A stretch of 64,000 bases of DNA from Crenalkalicoccus roseus. GTDB taxonomy: Bacteria; Pseudomonadota; Alphaproteobacteria; Acetobacterales; Acetobacteraceae. The stretch is from the NCBI RefSeq assembly GCF_004761865.1, contig NZ_SJDM01000001.1:124001-188000 (forward strand), in the 5' to 3' direction. Positions 4,283 through 59,533 of the stretch are shown one piece after another (the stretch's first letter is position 1; each line of letters starts with the position of its first letter). A program made the position numbers and the translations under genes. The notes beneath the pieces were generated by a model that searched no databases, was not told where the DNA came from, and saw only the letters and a list, made by a program, of their open reading frames with translations.

Positions 4283-5040
4283 TGGCGGGGGCGGAGCCGG
4301 TGATCCGCGTGCGCGACCTCGCCGCCCGCTTCGGCGGCAACACGGTGTTCGAGCACGTCTCCTTCGAGGTGCGCCGCGGCGAGGTGTTCGTCATCCTCGG
4401 CGGCTCTGGCTGCGGCAAGTCCACCCTGCTCAAGCACATGATCGGCCTCTACCCGCCGGCCGAGGGCACGGTGGAGATCCTCGGCCAGGACCTCGCCGCG
4501 CTGGCCGGCGAGGCGCGCCGGGCGCTGCTGCGGCGCATCGGGGTGATGTGGCAGTCGGGCGCGCTGTTCGGCTCCCTCACCCTGGCCGAGAACGTGGAGG
4601 TGCCGCTCGAGGAGCACACCGCCCTGCCGGCCGAGGCCCGCGCCCTGGTGGCGCGCGCCAAGCTCGGCCTCGTCGGCCTCGCCGACGCCGCGGGGCGGCT
4701 GCCGGCGGAGATCTCGGGCGGCATGGCCAAGCGCGCCGGCATCGCCCGGGCGATGGCGCTCGACCCGCCGATCCTGTTCCTCGACGAGCCCTCGGCCGGG
4801 CTCGACCCGATCACCTCGGCCGGCCTCGACGCGCTGATCCTCGAGCTCGCGCGCGAGCTCGGCACCACCTTCGTCGTGGTGACGCACGAGCTGCAGTCCA
4901 TCCTGGCGATCGGCGACCGCTGCATCATGCTGGACAAGGCGGCGCGCGGCGTGATCGCCGAGGGCGATCCGCGCGCGCTGCGCGAGACCAGCACCGACCC
5001 CGTGGTCCGCGCCTTCTTCCGGCGGGAGGCGATGGCATGA
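4282..5040 (+). CDS. mlaF: MlaF-type ABC transporter ATP-binding protein
   Basis: ATPase powering the Mla lipid transporter. Walker A GGSGCGKST lies at residues 40-48, the Q-loop at WQSGALF, the ABC signature ISGGMAKR near residue 155, Walker B ILFLDEPSAGLDP, and the switch histidine in THEL. The SGGMAKR signature and the SGALFGSLT segment are characteristic of MlaF/Ttg2A. At 252 residues it has the family length. It starts with ATG in the TGATG overlap with mlaE; a GTG three bases upstream is an alternative. Confidence 0.94.
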   Translation: MAGAEPVIRVRDLAARFGGNTVFEHVSFEVRRGEVFVILGGSGCGKSTLLKHMIGLYPPAEGTVEILGQDLAALAGEARRALLRRIGVMWQSGALFGSLTLAENVEVPLEEHTALPAEARALVARAKLGLVGLADAAGRLPAEISGGMAKRAGIARAMALDPPILFLDEPSAGLDPITSAGLDALILELARELGTTFVVVTHELQSILAIGDRCIMLDKAARGVIAEGDPRALRETSTDPVVRAFFRREAMA

Positions 5041-5077
5041 GCGGGCGGCGCCCCCGAACCCCTGACGAGGGATAGCC

Positions 5078-6190
5078 ATGCCGCAAACGCAGCGCCTCTA
5101 TCTGCGCGTGGGCACGCTGGTGGTCGCCGGGCTGGCGCTGGCGGTGGGCTTCGTGCTGTTCCTCACCGCCGACCGCTTCGCGCGCGGCGCCGAGATCTAC
5201 GAGACCTACATCCAGGAATCGGTGCAGGGGCTCGATGTCGGCGCCGCGGTGCGCTACCGCGGCGTCGCCGTCGGCCGGGTGGCCGAGATCGGCCTGGTCT
5301 CGGCCGAGTACCGCCGGCCCGAGGGCGGCCCCTTCCTCGCCGCCTTCCAGCGCGTGCTGGTGCGCTTCACCGTGGACAACACGCGCATCGGCGCCGGCGC
5401 GCCCTCGCTCGAGGAGGCGGTGCGCATCGGCCTGCGCGCCCGCCTCGCCGCGCAGGGCATCACCGGGGTGAACTACATCGAGCTCGACTTCGTGGATCCG
5501 GAGCGGTTCCCGCCGCCGCCGCCGCCGCCCTGGACGCCGCGCTTCCCCTACATCCCCTCCATCCCCTCCACCGTGGCGCAGGTGCAGGACGCGGCGCAGG
5601 TGCTGCTGCAGCGCCTGGACGCGGCGGACCTGCCCGGGCTGCTCGCCAACATCAACGGCTTCGTCACCGAGCTGCGCGAGCAGACGCGGGAGGGCGAGCT
5701 GGCGGTGGTGGTGCGCGAGGCCGCGGAGCTGCTGCGCGACCTGCGGGGCGAGGTGGAGCGCGCCGACATCCCCGCCACCCTCGCCGAGCTGCGCGGCGTC
5801 GCCGCGGAGGCGCGCGCCCTGCTGGCGAGCGAGGAGGTGCACGCCACCCTGGCCAGTGCCGCCGAGGCGATGGCCGAGCTGCGCGCCGCCGCCGCCGGGG
5901 CGCGGGCGGTCGCGGAAAGCGAGGAGCTGCGCCAGCTTCTCGCCAACGCCTCGGCCGCGGCGGCGGAGCTGCGCCGGGCGGCGCAGCGCCTGCCGGCCAC
6001 CCTCGCCTCGATCGAGGCCGGGGTGCGCACGGCGCGGTCCGCCTCCACCGACCTGCAGGCCGACCTGGTGCCGATTCTGCGCGACATGCGCACCGCCATC
6101 GGCAACCTGCGCGACGCGACCGAGTTGCTGCGCCGCTACCCGGGCCAGGCGATCTTCGGGGCGCCGCCCCCGCCGGAAGGACGACGATGA
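5078..6190 (+). CDS. mlaD: MCE-domain (MlaD-like) protein
   Basis: Substrate-binding MCE component anchored to the inner membrane. There is one transmembrane segment at about residues 8-30, one MCE domain at about 38-117 (VQGLDVGAAVRYRGVAVGRV, ITGVNYIELDF), a proline run, then a long Ala/Leu/Glu-rich helical region (about 165-350). The 370 residues exceed short MlaD (~180) and resemble the longer MCE proteins of alphaproteobacteria, where the helical tail may form a channel as in PqiB/LetB. Its last codons overlap the following lipoprotein gene by ATGA. Confidence 0.9.
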   Translation: MPQTQRLYLRVGTLVVAGLALAVGFVLFLTADRFARGAEIYETYIQESVQGLDVGAAVRYRGVAVGRVAEIGLVSAEYRRPEGGPFLAAFQRVLVRFTVDNTRIGAGAPSLEEAVRIGLRARLAAQGITGVNYIELDFVDPERFPPPPPPPWTPRFPYIPSIPSTVAQVQDAAQVLLQRLDAADLPGLLANINGFVTELREQTREGELAVVVREAAELLRDLRGEVERADIPATLAELRGVAAEARALLASEEVHATLASAAEAMAELRAAAAGARAVAESEELRQLLANASAAAAELRRAAQRLPATLASIEAGVRTARSASTDLQADLVPILRDMRTAIGNLRDATELLRRYPGQAIFGAPPPPEGRR

Positions 6191-13625: not shown

Positions 13626-15202
13626 CGTCCGCTCCCTTCCCTGCTCAGGATCAGATGCGCCATCAGCCGGTCCACCGGCGCGTAGTCGTCGGTCAGCACC
13701 GGCACGCCCGAGGCGGCGATGCGCGCGGCGACGAAGCCGGGCGGCAGCCGCGCCCAGCCGCGCTCCGGCCCGCGCCGGGCGGCCAGCCGCGCGACGGGGC
13801 TCGGCGTGTCGGAGGCGAGCAGCAGGTAGGTCACGCGCCGCCCCGGCGCCTCGGCCATCTCCACCCACACCTCCACCACCGGGAAGTCGAGCGCCAGGGT
13901 GCGCGCCAGCGCCAGCAGGAAGCGCGGCTCGCGCTTGTCCTCCATCACGTTCGCCACATAGGCGCCGCCGGGCGCGAGGCGCGCGCGCACCGCGCGGTGC
14001 CACTCGCGCGTCGCCAGGTGCACCGGCATGGCGATGTCGTGGAAGGCGTCGGCGAGGATGAGGTCGAAGCGCGGCCCCTCCGGCAGCGCCTGCAGGGCCG
14101 CCCTGCCGTCGGCGGCGAGCACGGTGAGCGCCGGGCTGTCCCCGAGCCAGAAGTCGCGCCGCGCCGTCTCGGCCACCACGGGGTCGAGCTCGGCGACCAG
14201 GAAGCGTCCCTCGGGGTGGTCGGCGGCCCAGGCGCGCGGCAGGGTGAAGGCGCCGCCGCCGAGGAAGAAGGCCGCCGGCCGCTCCGGCAGGCCGCGCGCC
14301 GCCATCAGCTCGTCCACCAGGTGCAGATAGGGCTGCACCAGCAGCGTCGGGTCGTCGCGCACATTGGCGCCATGCGCGAGGTGGTCGAGCACCATCAGCC
14401 GCGCCGGCTGGCCGACCGCCTCCGCCAGATCCACGACGCGGATGCAGAAATAGGCGCTCTCGCGGTCGCAGGGGCTGGCGAAGGGGGGAAGGCGCGCCGC
14501 CCCCGCCGGCAGCAGCAGCGCCGCGAGCGCCGCCGCGGCGCCGAGGCGCAGCCCCGCGGCGGCGCGCCGCGCCAGCGCCGCCGCCGCCCCGGCATGGCCC
14601 GCCGCCAGCAGGCCGTAGAGCGCGGCGCAGGCGAGCATAGTGCCGGCCGAGCCGATCCAGGCGACGAACAGGAAGCCCGCGGCCAGCGTGCCCGCGATCG
14701 CCCCCAGCGCCGAAAGGGCGAACAGCCGCCCAAGCACCGGCCCGACCCGGCCCGGCGGCGCCTCCTCCACGGCGAGCTTGGTGACGATGGGCGAGACGGC
14801 GCCGACCAGCAGGCTCGGGGCGAAGAAGGCGGCGAGCGCCAGGCCGAGGATGGCGGCAAGCGGGTGCACCCCCTCGCCGCCGAGCAGCGGCGCGGCGAAG
14901 CGCAGCGCCGGCACGGCGGCGAGCGTCGCCGCCGCCGAGCCCGCGAGCAGAAGGGCGAGGCGGCGGTGCCCCGTGCGCCGGTCGCAGCCCGGGCCGGCGA
15001 GCCGCCCGCCCCACCAGTGGCCGAGCGAGAAGCCGCCCAGCACCACGGCGATGATCGCCGTCCAGGTGTGCAGCGACATGCCGACATGCGGCGCCAGCAG
15101 CCGCCCCGCCACGATTTCCACCACCAGCCCGAGCGCGGAGGCGAGCAGGATGGTGGCGCCGTCGCCGAGCGCACGCAGGCGCGAGGGGCGCGGCGCGGTC
15201 AT
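13622..15202 (-). CDS. membrane-bound spermidine-synthase-like protein (fused MFS/SpdSyn)
   Basis: A 526-residue protein. The N-terminal half has several hydrophobic helices (ATILLASALGLVVEIVAGRL onward). The C-terminal half is a spermidine-synthase-like Rossmann domain (FFLGGGAFTLPRAWA, VAELDPVV, FDLILADAFHDIAMPVHL, YVANVMEDKRE). The substrate of these fused proteins is generally unknown, and spermidine synthesis should not be assumed. ATG 15202 is chosen over 15229. Coupled by ATGA to the DsrE-like gene and divergent from soxW. Confidence 0.82.
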   Translation of the reverse strand: MTAPRPSRLRALGDGATILLASALGLVVEIVAGRLLAPHVGMSLHTWTAIIAVVLGGFSLGHWWGGRLAGPGCDRRTGHRRLALLLAGSAAATLAAVPALRFAAPLLGGEGVHPLAAILGLALAAFFAPSLLVGAVSPIVTKLAVEEAPPGRVGPVLGRLFALSALGAIAGTLAAGFLFVAWIGSAGTMLACAALYGLLAAGHAGAAAALARRAAAGLRLGAAAALAALLLPAGAARLPPFASPCDRESAYFCIRVVDLAEAVGQPARLMVLDHLAHGANVRDDPTLLVQPYLHLVDELMAARGLPERPAAFFLGGGAFTLPRAWAADHPEGRFLVAELDPVVAETARRDFWLGDSPALTVLAADGRAALQALPEGPRFDLILADAFHDIAMPVHLATREWHRAVRARLAPGGAYVANVMEDKREPRFLLALARTLALDFPVVEVWVEMAEAPGRRVTYLLLASDTPSPVARLAARRGPERGWARLPPGFVAARIAASGVPVLTDDYAPVDRLMAHLILSREGSGR

Positions 15203-15258: not shown

Positions 15259-15834
15259 ATGAACCCCTTCGCCGCGACGCTGCGGCGTCGCTCCCTCGCC
15301 CTGCTGGCGCTCGCCGCGCTGCCGGCGCGCGCCGCGCCGGTGCGCACCGAGCACGGCTACACCCAGGACTGGTTCGCCGAGACCTTCCTGAACCTGCCCG
15401 AGGACCTGGAGGAGGCGCGGGCCGCCGGGCTGCGCCTCGGCGTGGTGTTCGAGCAGCGTGGCTGCCCCTACTGCCACGAGATGCACACCGACCACCTGGC
15501 GCAACCCGGGATCGAGGGCTTCATCCGCCCCCGCTTCCGCCTGATCCAGCTCGACCTGCACGGCGCCCGCCCCGTCACCGACCTCGACGGCGAGGTGCTG
15601 GAGGAGCGGGCGCTGGCGCGCAAGTGGCGCGTGACCTTCACCCCCACCATCGTCTTCCTTCCCGAGGCGCCGCCGCCCGCCCCGCGGCCGGGGCACGAGG
15701 CGGAGGTCGCGCGCATGCACGGGCTGCTGCGCAAGCCGGAATTCCTCGGCCTCTTCACCTACGTCGCCGAGCGGGGCTACGCCGACGGCACGCCCTTCCG
15801 CACCTGGTGGCGCCGCCGCAACGGGGCGGGGTAG
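15259..15834 (+). CDS. soxW: periplasmic thioredoxin, SoxW-like
   Basis: A 191-residue exported thioredoxin-fold protein. It has a signal peptide (about 1-25) and redox motif GCPYCHEM with Cys69 and Cys72. SoxW proteins receive electrons from the membrane protein SoxV and keep the Sox sulfur carrier reduced. The gene faces the end of soxV convergently with an 11-base gap. The name rests on motif plus context; a general SoxW/DsbE-like thioredoxin is the conservative call. Confidence 0.8.
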   Translation: MNPFAATLRRRSLALLALAALPARAAPVRTEHGYTQDWFAETFLNLPEDLEEARAAGLRLGVVFEQRGCPYCHEMHTDHLAQPGIEGFIRPRFRLIQLDLHGARPVTDLDGEVLEERALARKWRVTFTPTIVFLPEAPPPAPRPGHEAEVARMHGLLRKPEFLGLFTYVAERGYADGTPFRTWWRRRNGAG

Positions 15835-15845
15835 CGCCCCCGGCC

Positions 15846-16580
15846 TCATCCGAAGCGCCCGAGCCCCGGCCAGCGGTCCAGCATCCAGGCGCCGATCTCC
15901 TGGAAGCCGCCGGTCATCACCAGCACCCCGGTCAGCACCAGGAGCGCGCCGACCGCCACCTCCACGGCGCGGAAATGCCGGCGGAAGCGGCCGAGGAAGC
16001 GCAGGAAGGGGGTGGCGAAGGCGGCGGCCAGCAGGAAGGGGACGCCGATCCCCATCGCGTAGGCGAAGAGCAGGAGCGCCCCCTCCGCCACGCTGTCGCG
16101 CCCCGCGGCCAGGGTCAGGATGCCCGCCAGCACCGGGCCGACGCAGGGGGTCCAGCCGAAGGCGAAGGCGAGGCCCACCGCATAGGCGCCGAGCGGCGAG
16201 ACCGGCCGCGCCTTCGGGTGGAAGCGCCGCTCGTAGTTCAGCAGGCCGATGCGCAGGACGCCCGCGAAATGCAGGCCGAACAGGATCAGCACCGCGCCGG
16301 CGAGGAGGGCGAGCGTGTCCATGTGCGCGGCGAGCAGGCGCGACAGCGCGCTCGCCGTCGCGCCGAGCGCGGTGAAGACGGTGGCGAAGCCGAGCACGAA
16401 GAACAGCGCCGCCCCCAGCACCCGGCCGCGGTGCGGCACCTCGGCCACCGCCCCGCCGGGGGCGGCCCGCAGCGTCACGCCGCCGAGGAAGCCGAGATAG
16501 GGGATGACCAGCGGCAGCACGCAGGGGCTGAGGAAGGACAGCGCCCCCGCCAGCACCGCGCCGGCCAGGCCGACTTCCAT
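15846..16580 (-). CDS. soxV: CcdA/SoxV-type thiol-disulfide transporter
   Basis: Inner-membrane protein of 244 residues with six hydrophobic helices. The paired redox cysteines sit in FLSPCVLP (Cys20) and GWTPCVGP. CcdA/SoxV/DsbD proteins move reducing equivalents from cytoplasmic thioredoxin to the periplasm. Being last in the sox operon and next to soxW, it most likely serves Sox rather than cytochrome c maturation, though that is inference. Confidence 0.88.
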   Translation of the reverse strand: MEVGLAGAVLAGALSFLSPCVLPLVIPYLGFLGGVTLRAAPGGAVAEVPHRGRVLGAALFFVLGFATVFTALGATASALSRLLAAHMDTLALLAGAVLILFGLHFAGVLRIGLLNYERRFHPKARPVSPLGAYAVGLAFAFGWTPCVGPVLAGILTLAAGRDSVAEGALLLFAYAMGIGVPFLLAAAFATPFLRFLGRFRRHFRAVEVAVGALLVLTGVLVMTGGFQEIGAWMLDRWPGLGRFG

Positions 16581-16589
16581 CGCCCTGCC

Positions 16590-18257
16590 TCACGCCCCCT
16601 TCAGGCGGAGATGCGGGTTGGGTTCGGCGCGCACCGGCCCCTCGGCCAGGTGGCGGAACACCACCTCCCACACCGGCGGCCCTTCCGTGCCCTGGTTCAC
16701 CGAGGCCCAGCCGGCCACGACGTAGTCCCGCGCCGCCTCGATGGGCTCGCCGGTGCGCAGCAGCGTCAGGCCGGAGATGCGCCGCCCCGCCGGCGCGGCG
16801 ACGTCGAGCGTCCAGCCGAGGCCGCCGACGCGCACCATGTCCCCGCCCTGCTGGTAGTAGGGGTCGGGGTTGAACAGGTTGTCCGCCACATCCTCGAGGA
16901 TCGTCTTCAGCATCTCCCCGGTCATGGTGGTGCGGTAGGCGGCCGGGTAGGTGATGGCGGTGTGCGCCCAGACGTCCTCGGCGGTGATGTCGCTGCCCGG
17001 CAGCAGCGTGTAGCCCCAGCGGAAGCCGGGGGAGAGGGCGATCTCGGCGTCGCGCTGGCGCATCAGCGCGGCGCAGATCACGTCGTCCATGGTGCCGTTC
17101 AGGTTGCCGCGGCGCGTCAGCAGGCTCTCGGTGCGGCCGACCACGCGGGAGAGGTCGGCGGCGAAGGGGGCGCGCAGCCGCCGCACCAGGGCGGCGGCCT
17201 CCTCGTCCGGCACGATGCTCTCGGCGAAGATCGGGATCAGGGCGTGGCGGTGCTCCGCCACCCGCCCGCCCTCGATGCGGAGGTCGAGGCGGGAGACGAA
17301 CTTGCCGTGGCAGCCGCTGGCCACCAGCAGGGTGTCGCCGACGCGCAGCGGCTCCGGCAGCGCGTCGTGGGTGTGGCCGGTCAGGATCACGTCGATGCCC
17401 GGCACCCGCGCGGCGAGCTTGCGATCCACGTCGAAGCCGTTGTGCGAGAGCAGCACGACGAGCTGCGCGCCCTCCGCCCGCGCCGCGCGCACCCGCTCGG
17501 CCAGCCTCTCCTCGCGGATGCCGAAGGACCAGTCCGGGATCAGCCAGCGCGGATTGGCGATCGGCGTGTAGGGGAAGGCCTGGCCGATCACCGCCACCCT
17601 CACCCCGCCGCGCTCGAACATCCGCGTGTGCTCGAACACGTCCTCGTTCCACTCCGTGTCCTGCACGTTGCCGGCGAGGAAGGGGCAGGGCAGGGCGGCC
17701 ACCAGCTCCTTCACCCGCTCCGCGCCGTAGGTGAACTCCCAGTGGCCGGTGGTGGCGTCGGCGGTCAGGGCGCCGAGCGCCTCCGCCATGTCGGCGCCGC
17801 GGGTCTGCAGGCTGGTCCAGCTTCCCTGCAGCGTGTCGCCGCCGTCGAGCACCAGGGTGTTGTCCGGCCGCTCCGCGCGGATCGCGCGGATGACCGCGAC
17901 GATGCGGTCGAGCCCGCCCATCGGTCCGTAGGCGCGGGCGAGGCGCTCGAAGTCGAGGTCGGTCAGGGCGTGCGCCATCGGCGTGCCGGGGGCGATGCGG
18001 TAATGGGCGAGCAGCGCCTCCCCGGTCAGGTGCGGCACCTGGCCGCGCGCCTCGCCGACGCCGACGTTCAGCGTCGCCTCGCGGAAATGCATCGGCACGA
18101 GCTGGGCGTGCAGGTCGGTCACGTGCACGAGCGTGACCTGGCCGAGCGGATCGAAGCGCAGCAGCGCCTCCTGGGTCGGGCGCTCCTGGGCGCGGGCGGG
18201 CAGGCCGGCCGCCGCCAGCGCGGCGGCGGCGGCCATCAGGTCGCGGCGGGTGATCAT
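16590..18257 (-). CDS. soxB: thiosulfohydrolase SoxB
   Basis: Dimanganese 5'-nucleotidase-family hydrolase of the periplasmic Sox system, releasing sulfate from SoxY-bound cysteine S-thiosulfonate. 555 residues with a Tat-like N-terminus (MITRRDLMAAAAALAAAG). Metal-site motifs are VHVTDLHAQ, VLDGGDTLQGS, LSHNGFDVD and GHTHDAL. Length and motifs fit SoxB closely. It lies between soxA and soxV with a 26-base gap to soxA. Confidence 0.96.
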   Translation of the reverse strand: MITRRDLMAAAAALAAAGLPARAQERPTQEALLRFDPLGQVTLVHVTDLHAQLVPMHFREATLNVGVGEARGQVPHLTGEALLAHYRIAPGTPMAHALTDLDFERLARAYGPMGGLDRIVAVIRAIRAERPDNTLVLDGGDTLQGSWTSLQTRGADMAEALGALTADATTGHWEFTYGAERVKELVAALPCPFLAGNVQDTEWNEDVFEHTRMFERGGVRVAVIGQAFPYTPIANPRWLIPDWSFGIREERLAERVRAARAEGAQLVVLLSHNGFDVDRKLAARVPGIDVILTGHTHDALPEPLRVGDTLLVASGCHGKFVSRLDLRIEGGRVAEHRHALIPIFAESIVPDEEAAALVRRLRAPFAADLSRVVGRTESLLTRRGNLNGTMDDVICAALMRQRDAEIALSPGFRWGYTLLPGSDITAEDVWAHTAITYPAAYRTTMTGEMLKTILEDVADNLFNPDPYYQQGGDMVRVGGLGWTLDVAAPAGRRISGLTLLRTGEPIEAARDYVVAGWASVNQGTEGPPVWEVVFRHLAEGPVRAEPNPHLRLKGA

Positions 18258-18283
18258 GCGGTCTCCTCCCGGTCCCCCTCCGC

Positions 18284-19111
18284 TCAGCGGCGGACGGAGG
18301 GCGTCTCCACCGGCAGCCCCTGGGCCCGCCAGGCGAGGTAGAATTCGAGGTTGGTGAACTCCTCGCCGCCCATCGGCGGCGCCTCCCCGCGCACGTCGTT
18401 GACGCAGCCCTGCAGGCGGAACTGCAGGCTGATGACGCGCTGCTCCTTCAGCCGGTAGGTGGGGAAGCCGTTGCTCATGCCCTGGCTGAGCAGATCGGCG
18501 CGCAGGTAGCGGCCGTAATTGTCCTCGTGGCAGCTCCCGCAGCGCATGTCGAGCTGCCCGCGCCGCGTGTTGTAGAAGCGCTCGCCGGCGTCGAAGAAGG
18601 GCCGCGCCGGGCCGGAGATGTCCACCTGCACCGGCATGCCGCGCGACTGCAGGCCGATGAAGGCGGTCATGGCGTTGAGCGGGCGGCTGTCGATGCGCAG
18701 CGGCGGCGCGCCCATGTGCTCCTCGCGGCAGATGTTCACCCGCTGCTCCAGCGTGACGACGCGGCCCTTCTTCGCGTCGTAGGCCGGGTAGCGGGCGCGC
18801 ACGCCGCGCATGCTCTCGGCCGCGTTGCCGTGGCAGGAGGCGCAGGACTTCCCGGCCGCGCCCTCCGGGTGGTTCCAGGCCTGCTCGCCTTCCTCCACCC
18901 AGAGGAAGGCGGGGTTCTGGAAGTCGTCCTCCTGGATCGCCCGCGTCTCCGGCGTGGTGAATTCGAGGCCCGACTGGGGGTCGGGGATGGCCCGCACCGG
19001 CTCGGCGGCGGGGGCCTCCCCGCCGCCCTGCGCCAGCGCCGCCGCCACGGCGAGGGCGAGCACCGCCGCCGCGCCGGCCGGGAGCGCCGCGGCGCCCCGC
19101 CACCCGCGCAT
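18284..19111 (-). CDS. soxA: L-cysteine S-thiosulfotransferase subunit SoxA (dihaem cytochrome c)
   Basis: Catalytic subunit of SoxAX, which couples thiosulfate to the SoxY cysteine. It has a signal peptide and two c-type haem motifs, CASCH and CGSCH, as in dihaem SoxA. ATG 19111 (275 residues) is preceded at good distance by GTGAGG. A GTG at 19123 overlapping the soxZ stop (GTGA) is an equally possible start adding four residues. Confidence 0.95.
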   Translation of the reverse strand: MRGWRGAAALPAGAAAVLALAVAAALAQGGGEAPAAEPVRAIPDPQSGLEFTTPETRAIQEDDFQNPAFLWVEEGEQAWNHPEGAAGKSCASCHGNAAESMRGVRARYPAYDAKKGRVVTLEQRVNICREEHMGAPPLRIDSRPLNAMTAFIGLQSRGMPVQVDISGPARPFFDAGERFYNTRRGQLDMRCGSCHEDNYGRYLRADLLSQGMSNGFPTYRLKEQRVISLQFRLQGCVNDVRGEAPPMGGEEFTNLEFYLAWRAQGLPVETPSVRR

Positions 19112-19119
19112 GGCCGGCC

Positions 19120-19452
19120 TCACGCCAGCTTCAGCTCGGCGGTCGCCTTGCGCTCCTCGCCGGCGTCGTTGGTCCAGGTGAACTCGAAGGTGCCGGGCTT
19201 TTCCGCCTTGAAGGGGAAGGCGATGTAGGGGTTGGCGGAGATCGCCGGCGCCAGGTCCATGGCGAAGACCTGCTCGCCCTCGAAGCGCGCGACGAAGCGC
19301 TTGATGATGTCGCGCGGGATGACGTTGCCCTGCTGGTCGCGCCGCTGCCCGGTCTCCATGGCGTGGGAGATCAGGGTACGGATCTCGATCACCTCGCCCG
19401 CCCGCACCTGGGCCGGCAGGCGCACGCGGGGCTGTCCGATGGGGGCTGCCAT
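19120..19452 (-). CDS. soxZ: sulfur-carrier complex subunit SoxZ
   Basis: A 110-residue beta-sandwich protein that pairs with SoxY to form the thiosulfate carrier. Recognisable stretches are RVRLPAQVRAGEVIEIRTLI, HAMETGQRRD and FTWTNDAGE, all typical of SoxZ. No signal peptide; SoxZ is co-exported with SoxY by Tat. It follows soxY by 30 bases. Confidence 0.96.
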   Translation of the reverse strand: MAAPIGQPRVRLPAQVRAGEVIEIRTLISHAMETGQRRDQQGNVIPRDIIKRFVARFEGEQVFAMDLAPAISANPYIAFPFKAEKPGTFEFTWTNDAGEERKATAELKLA

Positions 19453-19482
19453 GTCGCTTCCTCCTGCTTGCTGCTTGCCGTC

Positions 19483-19947
19483 TCAGCCGCCGCAGCCGCC
19501 GATGGTCACCTTCACCTCGGTGCGGCCCATCCAGAGCGAGCCGTCGCTCATCTCCGCCACCGCGATCACGTCCTGGGTCTGGCCGAGGCGCATGCGCGTG
19601 TCCGCCTGGGCGCGGCCCATGGCGGGGGTGAAGTGGAAGGTGGCGACGTCGGGCGTCGGGTTCCTGTCGGCGAACAGGTGCACCGTCTTCACGTGGTCGG
19701 CCGCGGTCATCGGGCTGTCCACGCTGACCGTGACGGGAACGGTGTTGCCGTTCTCCGCGATCGGCGGCAGGCGCAGCGTCACCCGGCCCTCCTGCGGCGT
19801 CTTGCCGCCGGTGACCTTGCGGATCGCCTCCGTGGTCGCCGGCTGCATCTCGGCGCCCGCGGCGCGGGGCAGGGCGGCGATCGCCACGCCCCCCGCGGCG
19901 GCGGCGAGGAGGTGGCGGCGCCGGATGGTGGTGGGCCCTGTCTTCAT
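19483..19947 (-). CDS. soxY: sulfur-carrier protein SoxY
   Basis: Carries sulfur intermediates on the cysteine of the flexible C-terminal GGCGG, which is exactly how this 154-residue protein ends. The N-terminus has a Tat signal (RRRHLLAAAAGGVAIAALP). ATG 19947 is chosen because it begins the Tat signal and lies 23 bases after soxX. Confidence 0.96.
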   Translation of the reverse strand: MKTGPTTIRRRHLLAAAAGGVAIAALPRAAGAEMQPATTEAIRKVTGGKTPQEGRVTLRLPPIAENGNTVPVTVSVDSPMTAADHVKTVHLFADRNPTPDVATFHFTPAMGRAQADTRMRLGQTQDVIAVAEMSDGSLWMGRTEVKVTIGGCGG

Positions 19948-19970
19948 GGCGTCTCCCTTCCCGGTTGGGG

Positions 19971-20432
19971 TCACTTCAGGGTCATCAGCCAGGCGAGCAC
20001 GTCCTCGACCTCCTGCGCCTCCAGCATCGGCTTGCCGAGCCAGTCGCGGCGCACGGCGGTGAGGCCCTCCACCCGGTAGTAGGAGGGCATGTTGCTCTCC
20101 GGGTTGATGCGCTTGCTGTCCACGAGGCGCAGCCGCAGCTCGCCCTCGGTGTAGCGGTCCGCCACGCCGGCGAGCGGCGGGCCGAGATTGCCCTGGAAAT
20201 CCGCCTCCACCGGCATTTCGTGGCAGGTGACGCAGTTGCCCTTGGAACGGTTGAGCGCCAGCGCGCGCCCGCGCTCCGGATCGCCCGGGCGGTCGGTCAG
20301 CGGGCGGGGGATCGCGTCGTCCACCACCTCGTAGGGCACCAGCGCGGTGCCGCCCTGCGCCGGCGCCGGGCCGGGAATGGCGAGGCCGAGCGCCAGCACC
20401 ACCGCTCCGCACCGCCCCGTCCTGTTCCTCAC
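19971..20432 (-). CDS. soxX: cytochrome c SoxX
   Basis: Monohaem subunit of SoxAX. A signal peptide (AVVLALGLAIPGPAPAQ) precedes a cytochrome c fold with CVTCH and the distal methionine region PESNMPSYYRVEGL. The GTG at 20432 is selected because a strong ribosome site (GGGGGAGG) lies 7-8 bases upstream; no in-frame ATG is near. The product has 153 residues. Only 20 bases separate it from the anti-sigma gene, so the sox genes probably share that transcript. Confidence 0.92.
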   Translation of the reverse strand: MRNRTGRCGAVVLALGLAIPGPAPAQGGTALVPYEVVDDAIPRPLTDRPGDPERGRALALNRSKGNCVTCHEMPVEADFQGNLGPPLAGVADRYTEGELRLRLVDSKRINPESNMPSYYRVEGLTAVRRDWLGKPMLEAQEVEDVLAWLMTLK

Positions 20433-20452
20433 GACCGTTCCTCCCCCCTTCC

Positions 20453-21319
20453 TCAGCCGATGTTGTTCGGGCAGGGCCGCGGCTGCTGGGCGGCGATCCG
20501 TGGCCCCTCCTGCCGCGGCGGCCGCGGGCCGGCGCGCACCTCGCGCTCGGCGAGGAAGGCGATGCCGCGCAGCCGCTCGCGCGGCATCGCCGCCGTCACC
20601 GCGTAGCCGAAGCGCCCGTCGAACCAGTAGTAGGTGAGGCGCCCGCCCGGATGGTCGGCGCATTTCAGCTTCGCCGCCGGCGTGTCGGGGGCGGGGCGCA
20701 TGTAGAAGGAAAGCCGTGTCCCGTCGGTCAGGCGCTCGTACACCACCATCGCCGCGGTGCCCCAGGCCGAGGGCATCAGATGCGCGGTGAGCGGGCGGAA
20801 GCCGGCGTCGAGCAGGTCGGGCACCACCACCGGCGTGCCGAGCCGCTCGGCGAGCCAGCCCTCCAGCGCCTCCGGCACCGTCGCCGCCAGCATGGCGAGG
20901 GCGCGCGTCTCGGCGGCGAAGATGCGGTGCGCCTCGGCGGCCTCGGCCATCGGCGGGGCGGCGGGCGGCGGCGCGCCGCCCTCGATCTGGCCATGGGCGA
21001 GCCAGCCGGCCGCGCCGCCCACCAGCAGGAGGAGCAGGGCGGCGGCCATGTGGCGCAGCCGCTGCCAGCGCCGGGCGCGCAGCCCGGCCCGGATGTGGGC
21101 GAGGCGCAGCCGCGCCGGGATCGGCGCGCTCGCCTTCGGCGCCAGCGCCGTGCGCAGGGCGTCGCGCTGCGTGGCGAAGGCGCGCACCCGCGCCGCCGCC
21201 TCCGGGTGCTCCTCGAGGTAGCGGCGCACCAGGGCGAGGCGCGCGGCGTCCAGCCGCTCGTCCACGAAGGCCTGCAGGTCGTCCTCGCCGATCGGGGGAT
21301 GGGCGCGCGGATCCGTCAT
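20453..21319 (-). CDS. membrane anti-sigma factor
   Basis: A 288-residue protein with an N-terminal acidic helical region (PIGEDDLQAFVDERLDAARL), typical of transmembrane anti-sigma factors, then one transmembrane segment (HMAAALLLLLVGGAAGWLA) at about 92-110 and a periplasmic domain. I see no HxxxCxxC zinc motif, so it would be a zinc-independent type. The ATGA overlap with the ECF sigma gene supports the pairing. The periplasmic domain may sense a signal related to sulfur oxidation; that is inference. Confidence 0.85.
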   Translation of the reverse strand: MTDPRAHPPIGEDDLQAFVDERLDAARLALVRRYLEEHPEAAARVRAFATQRDALRTALAPKASAPIPARLRLAHIRAGLRARRWQRLRHMAAALLLLLVGGAAGWLAHGQIEGGAPPPAAPPMAEAAEAHRIFAAETRALAMLAATVPEALEGWLAERLGTPVVVPDLLDAGFRPLTAHLMPSAWGTAAMVVYERLTDGTRLSFYMRPAPDTPAAKLKCADHPGGRLTYYWFDGRFGYAVTAAMPRERLRGIAFLAEREVRAGPRPPRQEGPRIAAQQPRPCPNNIG

Positions 21320-21858
21320 GGCTGTTCCGTCCCCTGCCCGACCACGCGCAGCCGCCGCACGGAGGATGACGGCGCGCCCCCGCCCTCGGTCAGGCGGCGC
21401 AGGCGCTCGCGCCCGCGGCTCAGCCGCGACATCACCGTGCCGACCGGCACGCCGAGGATGCGGGCCGTCTCCTCGTAGCCGAGCCCCTCCACCCCCACCA
21501 GCAGCAGCACCGCCTGCTGCTCCTCGGGCAGGGTGGAGAGGTGGCGCAGCACCTCGGCGCAGTGCACCGCGCCCTCCGGCGCCTCCGCCCCCGTCGCGGT
21601 CTCGGCGAGGCCGGCCGCCTCCTCAGCGAGGCGGGTGCGCCTCGCCTCGCGGCGGCGGCCGCTGATGTGGGCGTTGTAGAGGATGGCGAACAGCCAGGCC
21701 TTCAGGTCCCCCCCCGGCCGGCGGAGATGCCAGCTTCCGAGCGCGCGCTCGAGGCAGTCCTGCACCAGGTCGTCCGCCGCGTGCTGGTCGCGCAGCAGCG
21801 ACCAGGCGAAGCGGCGGAGCGCCGGGATCGTGGCCTCGATGCTCGCATCGCGGTCCAT
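21316..21858 (-). CDS. ECF-family RNA polymerase sigma factor
   Basis: A 180-residue sigma-70 factor with region 2 (LLRDQHAADDLVQDCLERAL) and region 4 (LPEEQQAVLLLVGVEGLGYEETARILGVPVGTVMSRLSRGRERLRR) and no region 3, the ECF layout. It is followed directly by its probable anti-sigma and then the sox genes. An ECF-type promoter lies 63 bases upstream, so autoregulation is likely. Confidence 0.94.
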   Translation of the reverse strand: MDRDASIEATIPALRRFAWSLLRDQHAADDLVQDCLERALGSWHLRRPGGDLKAWLFAILYNAHISGRRREARRTRLAEEAAGLAETATGAEAPEGAVHCAEVLRHLSTLPEEQQAVLLLVGVEGLGYEETARILGVPVGTVMSRLSRGRERLRRLTEGGGAPSSSVRRLRVVGQGTEQP

Positions 21859-21920
21859 CGGGGGTTGTCCTCTCGCGCGGGTGCTCCGGCCGGCGGGGCG
21901 GCGGATCGGTCCCTCGCGCG

Positions 21921-21949
21921 TAGGACGCCCCGCGGCGGGGCGTTATTCC
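21921..21949 (-). promoter_or_regulatory. ECF-type promoter of the sigma/anti-sigma/sox transcript
   Basis: On the minus strand GGAATAA (21949-21943) and CGTCCTA (21927-21921) form GGAAT-N17-CGTC, the standard ECF -35/-10 pattern. The GC-rich spacer is self-complementary (ACGCCCC/GGGGCGT). It reads toward the sigma gene start at 21858. Confidence 0.7.
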
Positions 21950-21965
21950 CGCCGCGGCGTGCGGC

Positions 21966-59212: not shown

Positions 59213-59533
59213 ATGCGCGGCAGGATCGGTGAGGACCAGGTGGTCGAGCTGGCGGAGATGTTCCGCCTGATGAGCGACCCGACGCGGCTGCGCATCATCC
59301 TCGCCTGCCTCGACCAGCCGGCGGCGGTGGGCGAGATGGCCGAGCGGCTCGGCATCTCCGCCTCGCTCGTGTCGCACCACCTGCGCCTTCTGCGCGCGGC
59401 GCGGCTGCTGCAGGCGGAGCGGCGCGGGCGGCAGGTGTTCTACGCCGTGGGCGACGAGCACATCCGCTCGATGCTCTCGGACATGGTGGACCACGTGGCG
59501 GAGGGCGAGGCCGATGCCGAGGCGGGCGGCTGA
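59213..59533 (+). CDS. ArsR/SmtB-family metal-sensing regulator
   Basis: A 106-residue winged-helix repressor: LMSDPTRLRIILACLDQPAAVGEMAERLGISASLVSHHLRLLRAARLLQAERRGRQVFYAV. The C-terminal helix DEHIRSMLSDMVDHVAE has ligands spaced D-x-H-x10-H-x2-E, close to the zinc site of CzrA (D-x-H-x10-H-x2-H). So it probably binds Zn2+ or a related ion and controls the divergent importer. Confidence 0.9.
   Translation: MRGRIGEDQVVELAEMFRLMSDPTRLRIILACLDQPAAVGEMAERLGISASLVSHHLRLLRAARLLQAERRGRQVFYAVGDEHIRSMLSDMVDHVAEGEADAEAGG

Follow-up and report, generated by a model that had tools for sequence, protein, structure and literature searches.

The sulfur-oxidation (sox) operon of Crenalkalicoccus roseus is physically joined to an extracytoplasmic function (ECF) sigma factor gene in the 64,000-nucleotide stretch analysed here (contig NZ_SJDM01000001.1, positions 124,001–188,000; hereafter the window), where open reading frames (ORFs) and profile searches place the sigma gene, an anti-sigma gene and soxXYZABV in a single minus-strand unit. 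Sequence comparisons make it likely overall that this sigma factor, of the ECF26 type, drives both the sigma–anti-sigma gene pair and soxXYZABV, along with soxCD and sorAB-like genes located on different contigs; the proposed signal is sulfite, which may be received by a two-cysteine switch in the anti-sigma factor. The sigma gene (21316..21858; 180 amino acids; Pfam Sigma70 regions 2 and 4) overlaps the anti-sigma gene (20453..21319; 288 amino acids) by ATGA, and soxX, with a GTG start (19971..20432; NCBIfam TIGR04485, 81.1 bits, cut-off 61), follows after 20 bases, in agreement with the original prediction, which had been made from the letters of the window. Next on the same strand come soxY (19483..19947; TIGR04488, 154.5 bits, cut-off 125; GGCGG at the C-terminus), soxZ (19120..19452; TIGR04490), soxA (18284..19123; TIGR04484), soxB (about 16590..18257; TIGR04486, 784.8 bits) and a DsbD_TM thiol transporter gene named soxV-like by position (15846..16580; PF02683). 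Profile matches and ORFs bear out this predicted order, with SoxX, Y, Z, A and B all exceeding their NCBIfam cut-offs, and the predicted lack of a terminator within the unit also holds, the sole terminator-like match, inside soxV, being no better than in shuffled sequence.

The sigma factor very probably transcribes this operon from an ECF26-type promoter, GGAAT-N17-CGTC (21924..21949, minus strand), which lies 16 bases after the stop codon of a TctC-type gene (tctC), directly upstream of the sigma gene and first in minus-strand order. From the site to the sigma ATG we count 65 bases; the motif was predicted correctly and its distance, given as 63 bases, was not. The site fits the published ECF26 promoter consensus (-35 GGAATA, -10 with GT/CGTC). 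The consensus of sulfite-response ECF26 sigma factors is given as -35 GGAAT and -10 CGTC (PMC6527743), and the own promoter of rpoE4 is GGAATAA with a spacing of 17 as counted from the promoter table (PMC6180224). The site alone would prove little, because the looser pattern GGAAY-N16..18-CGTC is not enriched genome-wide (116+89 matches against 111+110 in the reversed control; 14 exact GGAAT-N17-CGTC in 4,431,246 bases), and the evidence lies in conservation. The original prediction had pointed to related genomes as the place to look for the site, and GGAAT-CGTC at a spacing of exactly 17 was found before each of the seven sulfur-linked sigma genes (those beside sox or sorAB-like genes) in the window's clade, with variable spacers and flanks. 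Consensus fit and conservation together support the predicted control of sox by its own ECF sigma factor. No further GGAAT-N15..18-CGTC was found on the sense strand within 3.5 kb of the sigma start in any of these seven loci, and between 14500 and 24500 of the window the sense strand has no other match to GGAA(T/C/G)-N14..19-CGT(C/T). Within 400 bases upstream of the sigma gene, no site was found in 3/3 unlinked Acetobacteraceae loci and in 8/8 Microvirga/Enterovirga loci examined; two Enterovirga loci (L011, L014) have it about 460 bases upstream of the sigma gene, and a Luteimonas relative has it with a spacing of 16. As several other ECF26 members also carry GGAATA-N15..17-CGTC, the motif marks the ECF26 family and not sulfur genes alone.

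Matching sites precede two further gene sets of the same genome, and we are confident, on sequence grounds, that the three promoters (sigma-sox, soxCD and sorAB-like) probably form one shared regulon. The Sox system is completed outside the window by soxC on contig C43 (641.7 bits, cut-off 420), followed by a c-type cytochrome gene taken as soxD by position. GGAAT-N17-CGTC lies 136 bases before this soxC and, on contig C66, about 33 bases upstream of the probable ATG of a sorA-like gene; for any one correctly oriented upstream region of 200 bases, the expected chance of a site is about 3e-4. The soxC-side site on C43 falls inside the longest reading of a divergent cytochrome ORF, and a later start, as in Roseicella aerolata (G165), frees it. 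A soxC-side site is present in 3/3 genomes with intact sigma-linked sox: the present one, G165 (before genes for a cytochrome, a flavocytochrome c sulfide dehydrogenase flavoprotein, SoxC and a cytochrome) and G151 (before soxC, 607.7 bits). In the fetched regions of five genomes lacking sigma-sox linkage (G094, G044, G086, G159 and G153), no site was found before the soxC-like gene. Of the other 11 exact sites of the own genome, eight fall inside predicted ORFs, two precede an ORF (C43:29874 by 93 bases, another by 362 bases) and one is followed by no ORF; one-mismatch sites on C73 and C117 have no sox or sor match nearby. Two points weigh against the shared regulon: the C66 enzyme scores best on SorA yet below the cut-off (248 of 600 bits), and G044, in which no sigma gene was detected, has a spacing-16 site 0.3 kb before a sorA-like gene. 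Sites count only in context, since the exact motif is not uncommon elsewhere in related genomes (23 in G165, 33 in G151, 14 in G044). In the own genome, soxC and the cytochrome gene are followed by a small gene for a DsrE-family protein (Pfam; L130, 10636-11100).

The window sigma factor shares 40% identity over 169 residues with the Sinorhizobium meliloti pSymA rpoE6 locus and 38% over 138 residues with S. meliloti RpoE4, both listed as ECF26 (PMC6180224), and by this relatedness it is assigned to ECF26; it is the only sigma factor of this type in its genome at E 1e-25. Phylogenetic analysis separates 27 RpoE4-type rows from 74 other rows (support 100/98) and places the window clade (support 100/97) among the latter, outside the RpoE4 clade, which suggests that its link to sulfur genes arose separately. 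That link extends to a gene for a sulfite-oxidising enzyme, sorAB-like genes being found on C66 behind their own site and directly after the anti-sigma gene in 5/7 clade loci (L093, L094, L095, L097 and L098). The molybdoenzyme of the relatives' operons was also considered as SoxC, and this assignment was rejected: its best solved match is SorA of Starkeya novella (2blf, E 1e-54), against 2e-25 for 2xts, and on NCBIfam it scores 247 bits for SorA and 181 bits for SoxC, each below the cut-off.

Homology and the nature of the targets make sulfite a rather likely signal for the window sigma factor. ECF26 members RpoE4 (Sinorhizobium) and SigE (Starkeya) are activated by sulfite or sulfite-yielding compounds and drive sulfite dehydrogenase genes (PMC6527743, PMC3511301). 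S. meliloti RpoE4-EcfR4 (L231) resembles the window in having a sigma/anti-sigma pair upstream of sulfur-oxidation genes (sorT, cytochrome c, pseudoazurin), GGAATAA-N17-CGTC on the sigma gene and a C-terminal cysteine in the anti-sigma factor, but only sulfite dehydrogenase genes lie downstream, a second site occupies a 144-base gap, the sigma factor falls in another clade and the partner cysteine of EcfR4 is on another strand. SigE-sorAB of S. novella likewise sets an ECF26 pair beside a SorA-type enzyme, with SigE responding to sulfite, whereas its sigma gene lacks a consensus promoter (PMC6527743). The sulfite signal is weakened by one study in which S. meliloti reporters gave no response to added sulfite (PMC3511301), while in another sorT did respond (PMC6527743). 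Of the cue originally suggested for the anti-sigma factor, sulfur or redox status, the sulfur side would stand by analogy, probably as sulfite, with general redox state less likely. In the mechanism we propose, thiosulfate oxidation would yield sulfite in the periplasm, where it may act on Cys220 and Cys283 of the anti-sigma factor; because sulfite reacts with disulfides, the reaction could be disulfide cleavage (sulfitolysis). The membrane-bound anti-sigma factor would hold the sigma factor until this reaction frees it, and the freed sigma factor would then transcribe its own gene, the anti-sigma gene, soxXYZABV, soxCD and the sorAB-like genes, giving a self-amplifying switch by which the enzymes for oxidising thiosulfate and sulfite would rise in concert.

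The anti-sigma factor matches no Pfam or NCBIfam family at E 0.001. Its structural model (11 rows; mean predicted local distance difference test (pLDDT) 82.6, predicted template modelling score 0.53) has N-terminal helices, one long helix, within which a membrane span was assigned by eye, a six-strand beta domain and a C-terminal tail, a predicted architecture that fits the ECF26 layout of N-terminal domain, transmembrane helix and periplasmic C-terminal domain; fold matches are weak, the best including MucB and RseB (E 0.002 and above). Cys220 (codon 20660..20662, minus strand) lies in predicted strand 216-223 and Cys283 (codon 20471..20473, minus strand) in the tail. Under the rule of one cysteine among the 12 C-terminal residues and a second 50-100 residues ahead of that one, such a pair is present in the window clade (7/7) and the RpoE4 types (27/27) and in none of 65 other members (63 distinct, L043/L112 and L154/L312 each being entered twice), with the S8-protease anti-sigmas kept outside the 65 and L170 and L171 dropped for having no anti-sigma factor. 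The partner cysteine occupies alignment column 262 in the window clade and 242 in the RpoE4 types. Nineteen of the RpoE4-type rows come from a sample chosen by the sulfite oxidase gene alone, in which all 89 places were examined (a main set of 80, eight more and L131 of the own genome, these last nine without an ECF match), 20 had an ECF match, 19 of them within 2 kb, and the adjacent anti-sigma carries the pair in 19/19; the anti-sigma of the 20th, L312, is without it. The remaining eight are plasmid-borne loci with the sigma pair directly beside the sulfite oxidase gene, drawn from 13 sulfite-oxidase regions (2 with a pair directly beside the enzyme) and 6 sigma regions (6/6), and all eight, including S. 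meliloti rpoE4-ecfR4-sorT (L231; EcfR4 cysteines 175 and 255) and M. extorquens CM4 (L195), have the cysteine pair with one cysteine at the C-terminal tip.

Judged from these sequence patterns, the chance that the Cys220–Cys283 pair acts as the sensor is close to even, a little on the doubtful side. Several observations weigh against it. The tail with Cys283 is modelled at low confidence (pLDDT 51-59), the 27 RpoE4-type rows were chosen for adjoining a sulfite oxidase gene, and the 34 cysteine-bearing anti-sigmas form two clades and so represent only about two independent events; as the rows are related, a Fisher test on the counts is not relied on. Sigma/anti-sigma pairs lacking these cysteines occur near sulfite-oxidase-type genes in M. 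bullatum (L198), in G479 (L312/L154, about 2 kb from one such gene), in Aminobacter L236 (its second pair), in R. haemaphysalidis (L185) and at L048, which has a 27% SoxC match next to its sigma gene. L198 may not contradict the cysteine idea, since it lies beside DUF305 and YncE genes like the S. novella RpoE1 that responds to tetrathionate (PMC6527743). Only somewhat short of even is the alternative that the pair is a structural disulfide or a clade signature and that the anti-sigma factor senses otherwise, through proteolysis triggered by a redox, thiosulfate or persulfide cue, as its confinement to two clades and the different cysteine pair of four S8-protease-adjacent anti-sigmas would suggest; against this, the pair is shared by two clades whose links are separate and whose partner cysteines differ in column (242 and 262), it was not seen in the 65 other members, and the RpoE1 of S. 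novella answers tetrathionate instead of sulfite (PMC6527743). The four anti-sigmas in question, at plasmid loci L317-L320, lie beside S8 serine proteases (RpoE6-like), with msrB-msrA as a further neighbour in one case, and have a third cysteine layout, at columns 244 and 262 on neighbouring strands with no tail cysteine. We know of no link of these protease-paired anti-sigmas to sulfite. Taken together, the three layouts suggest that a thiol switch was built repeatedly within one part of the domain. For sulfite sensing through the cysteines, our tentative general model, which we would hold to be rather less probable than not, is that ECF26 anti-sigmas sense sulfite by periplasmic tail-to-sheet cysteine-pair chemistry, that the switch arose twice with its partner on different strands, and that in the window clade it was extended from sulfite dehydrogenase to a regulon of sox, soxCD and sorAB-like genes. 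How these anti-sigmas sense sulfite is stated to be an open point in the field (PMC6527743, in whose main text a word search found no 'sox', 'cysteine' or 'disulfide'), and the cysteine pattern turns it into a simple mutational test that is feasible in S. meliloti EcfR4.

Among 200 genomes of Acetobacteraceae, many of them fragmented assemblies, matches were found to the sigma factor in 65 (E 1e-25), to SoxX in 45 (1e-15) and to SoxB in 31 (1e-60). The sigma gene and soxB lie within 20 kb of each other in 3 of the 31 soxB genomes, those of the window, G165 (L010) and G151, and contig breaks may hide further linkages. A fourth genome, Caldovatus aquaticus (G046, L009), has the sigma and anti-sigma genes, sorAB-like genes, soxX and a decayed soxY-V. 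The sigma-sox order is a trait of a small Acetobacteraceae clade comprising four genera, in one of which sox has decayed; conservation in relatives, whose lack would have counted against the original prediction, holds within this clade, while the 28 other soxB genomes show no linked sigma gene at this threshold, which weighs against ECF control of sox. Seven genomes have a SoxX at least 68% identical, and the sigma pair is adjacent in four of them. In the window and on contig 7 of G151 sox directly follows the anti-sigma gene, whereas in L094 and L095 sorAB-like genes stand between the two, and G151 has two copies of the sigma pair (L096, L097), one heading sox and the other sorAB-like genes. 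Capture beside sorAB-like genes first, with later extension to sox, is the likely history. In the decayed sox of L009 (11341-14820) the soxY match is truncated, soxV is broken and soxZ, soxA and soxB have no match; a promoter-like site lies at 14264, and the contig, which ends roughly 0.5 kb further on, has no soxC there.

An alternative is that the sigma factor transcribes nothing beyond its own gene pair (and sorAB-like genes), that soxX onward is under another promoter or regulator and that the adjacency is a relic. Besides the many soxB genomes without a linked sigma gene, this would agree with three clade loci (L093, L097, L098) in which the pair adjoins sorAB-like genes without sox, and with the site found between the anti-sigma and sulfite oxidase genes in 4/5 RpoE4-type loci (L231, L232, L236 and, as CGTT, L234; not L195). 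We nevertheless consider it unlikely, given the gap of only 20 bases between the anti-sigma gene and soxX, the separate soxC site in all three genomes with intact linked sox and the lack of a second ECF26 site. A separate sigma-70 or SoxR-controlled promoter before soxX, named at the outset as the finding that would overturn ECF control, did not emerge either: a simple, crude scan of the locus gave no sigma-70-like match, none of the eight ArsR-type matches in the genome (HTH_5 only) is near sox, and the flanking ORFs show no soxR. An ArsR-type helix-turn-helix match was observed elsewhere in the window, at 59276-59413, about 37 kb from sox. In three genomes lacking the sigma gene (L101-L103), by-eye inspection of the sequence ahead of sox found no ArsR gene; L102 has an IclR-like ORF (4779-5552), separated from soxX by a TctC-like ORF. 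Transcription of sox from the sigma promoter remains our preferred reading. A perfect 10-pair inverted repeat (21930-21965, minus strand; z -2.0) overlaps that promoter 16 bases behind the tctC stop, and most relatives show no comparable folding z at this position. That GGAAT-CGTC is part of a tctC terminator hairpin and not a promoter, as this overlap might suggest, is very improbable and was dropped, as there is no T-run and the folding z of the other six clade loci ranges from -1.9 to +1.7 while their -35 and -10 stay constant.

SoxR of Hyphomicrobium denitrificans is reportedly of the ArsR type. Like the window system, it controls sulfur-oxidation genes in an alphaproteobacterium (PMC10451225), but it is a repressor, whereas the window sox genes have no ArsR-type match nearby. 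Arcobacter butzleri already provides a precedent for ECF control of sox, as its ECF sigma2 activates the sox operon; unlike in the window, the sigma2 gene (AB1044) is not beside sox (AB0563-0570), and the sigma2 regulon is broad and includes nap (PMC3445524). In the open-access literature, as far as searched, we recognised no report of an ECF26 sigma gene adjoining sox and no account of cysteines or sulfitolysis in these anti-sigmas, and as far as these searches show the window sox operon would be the first to be physically joined to a sulfite-type sigma factor. Just outside the operon, a thioredoxin gene on the plus strand (15259..15834; PF13098), named soxW-like by position, is convergent with soxV, an arrangement also seen in the relatives.

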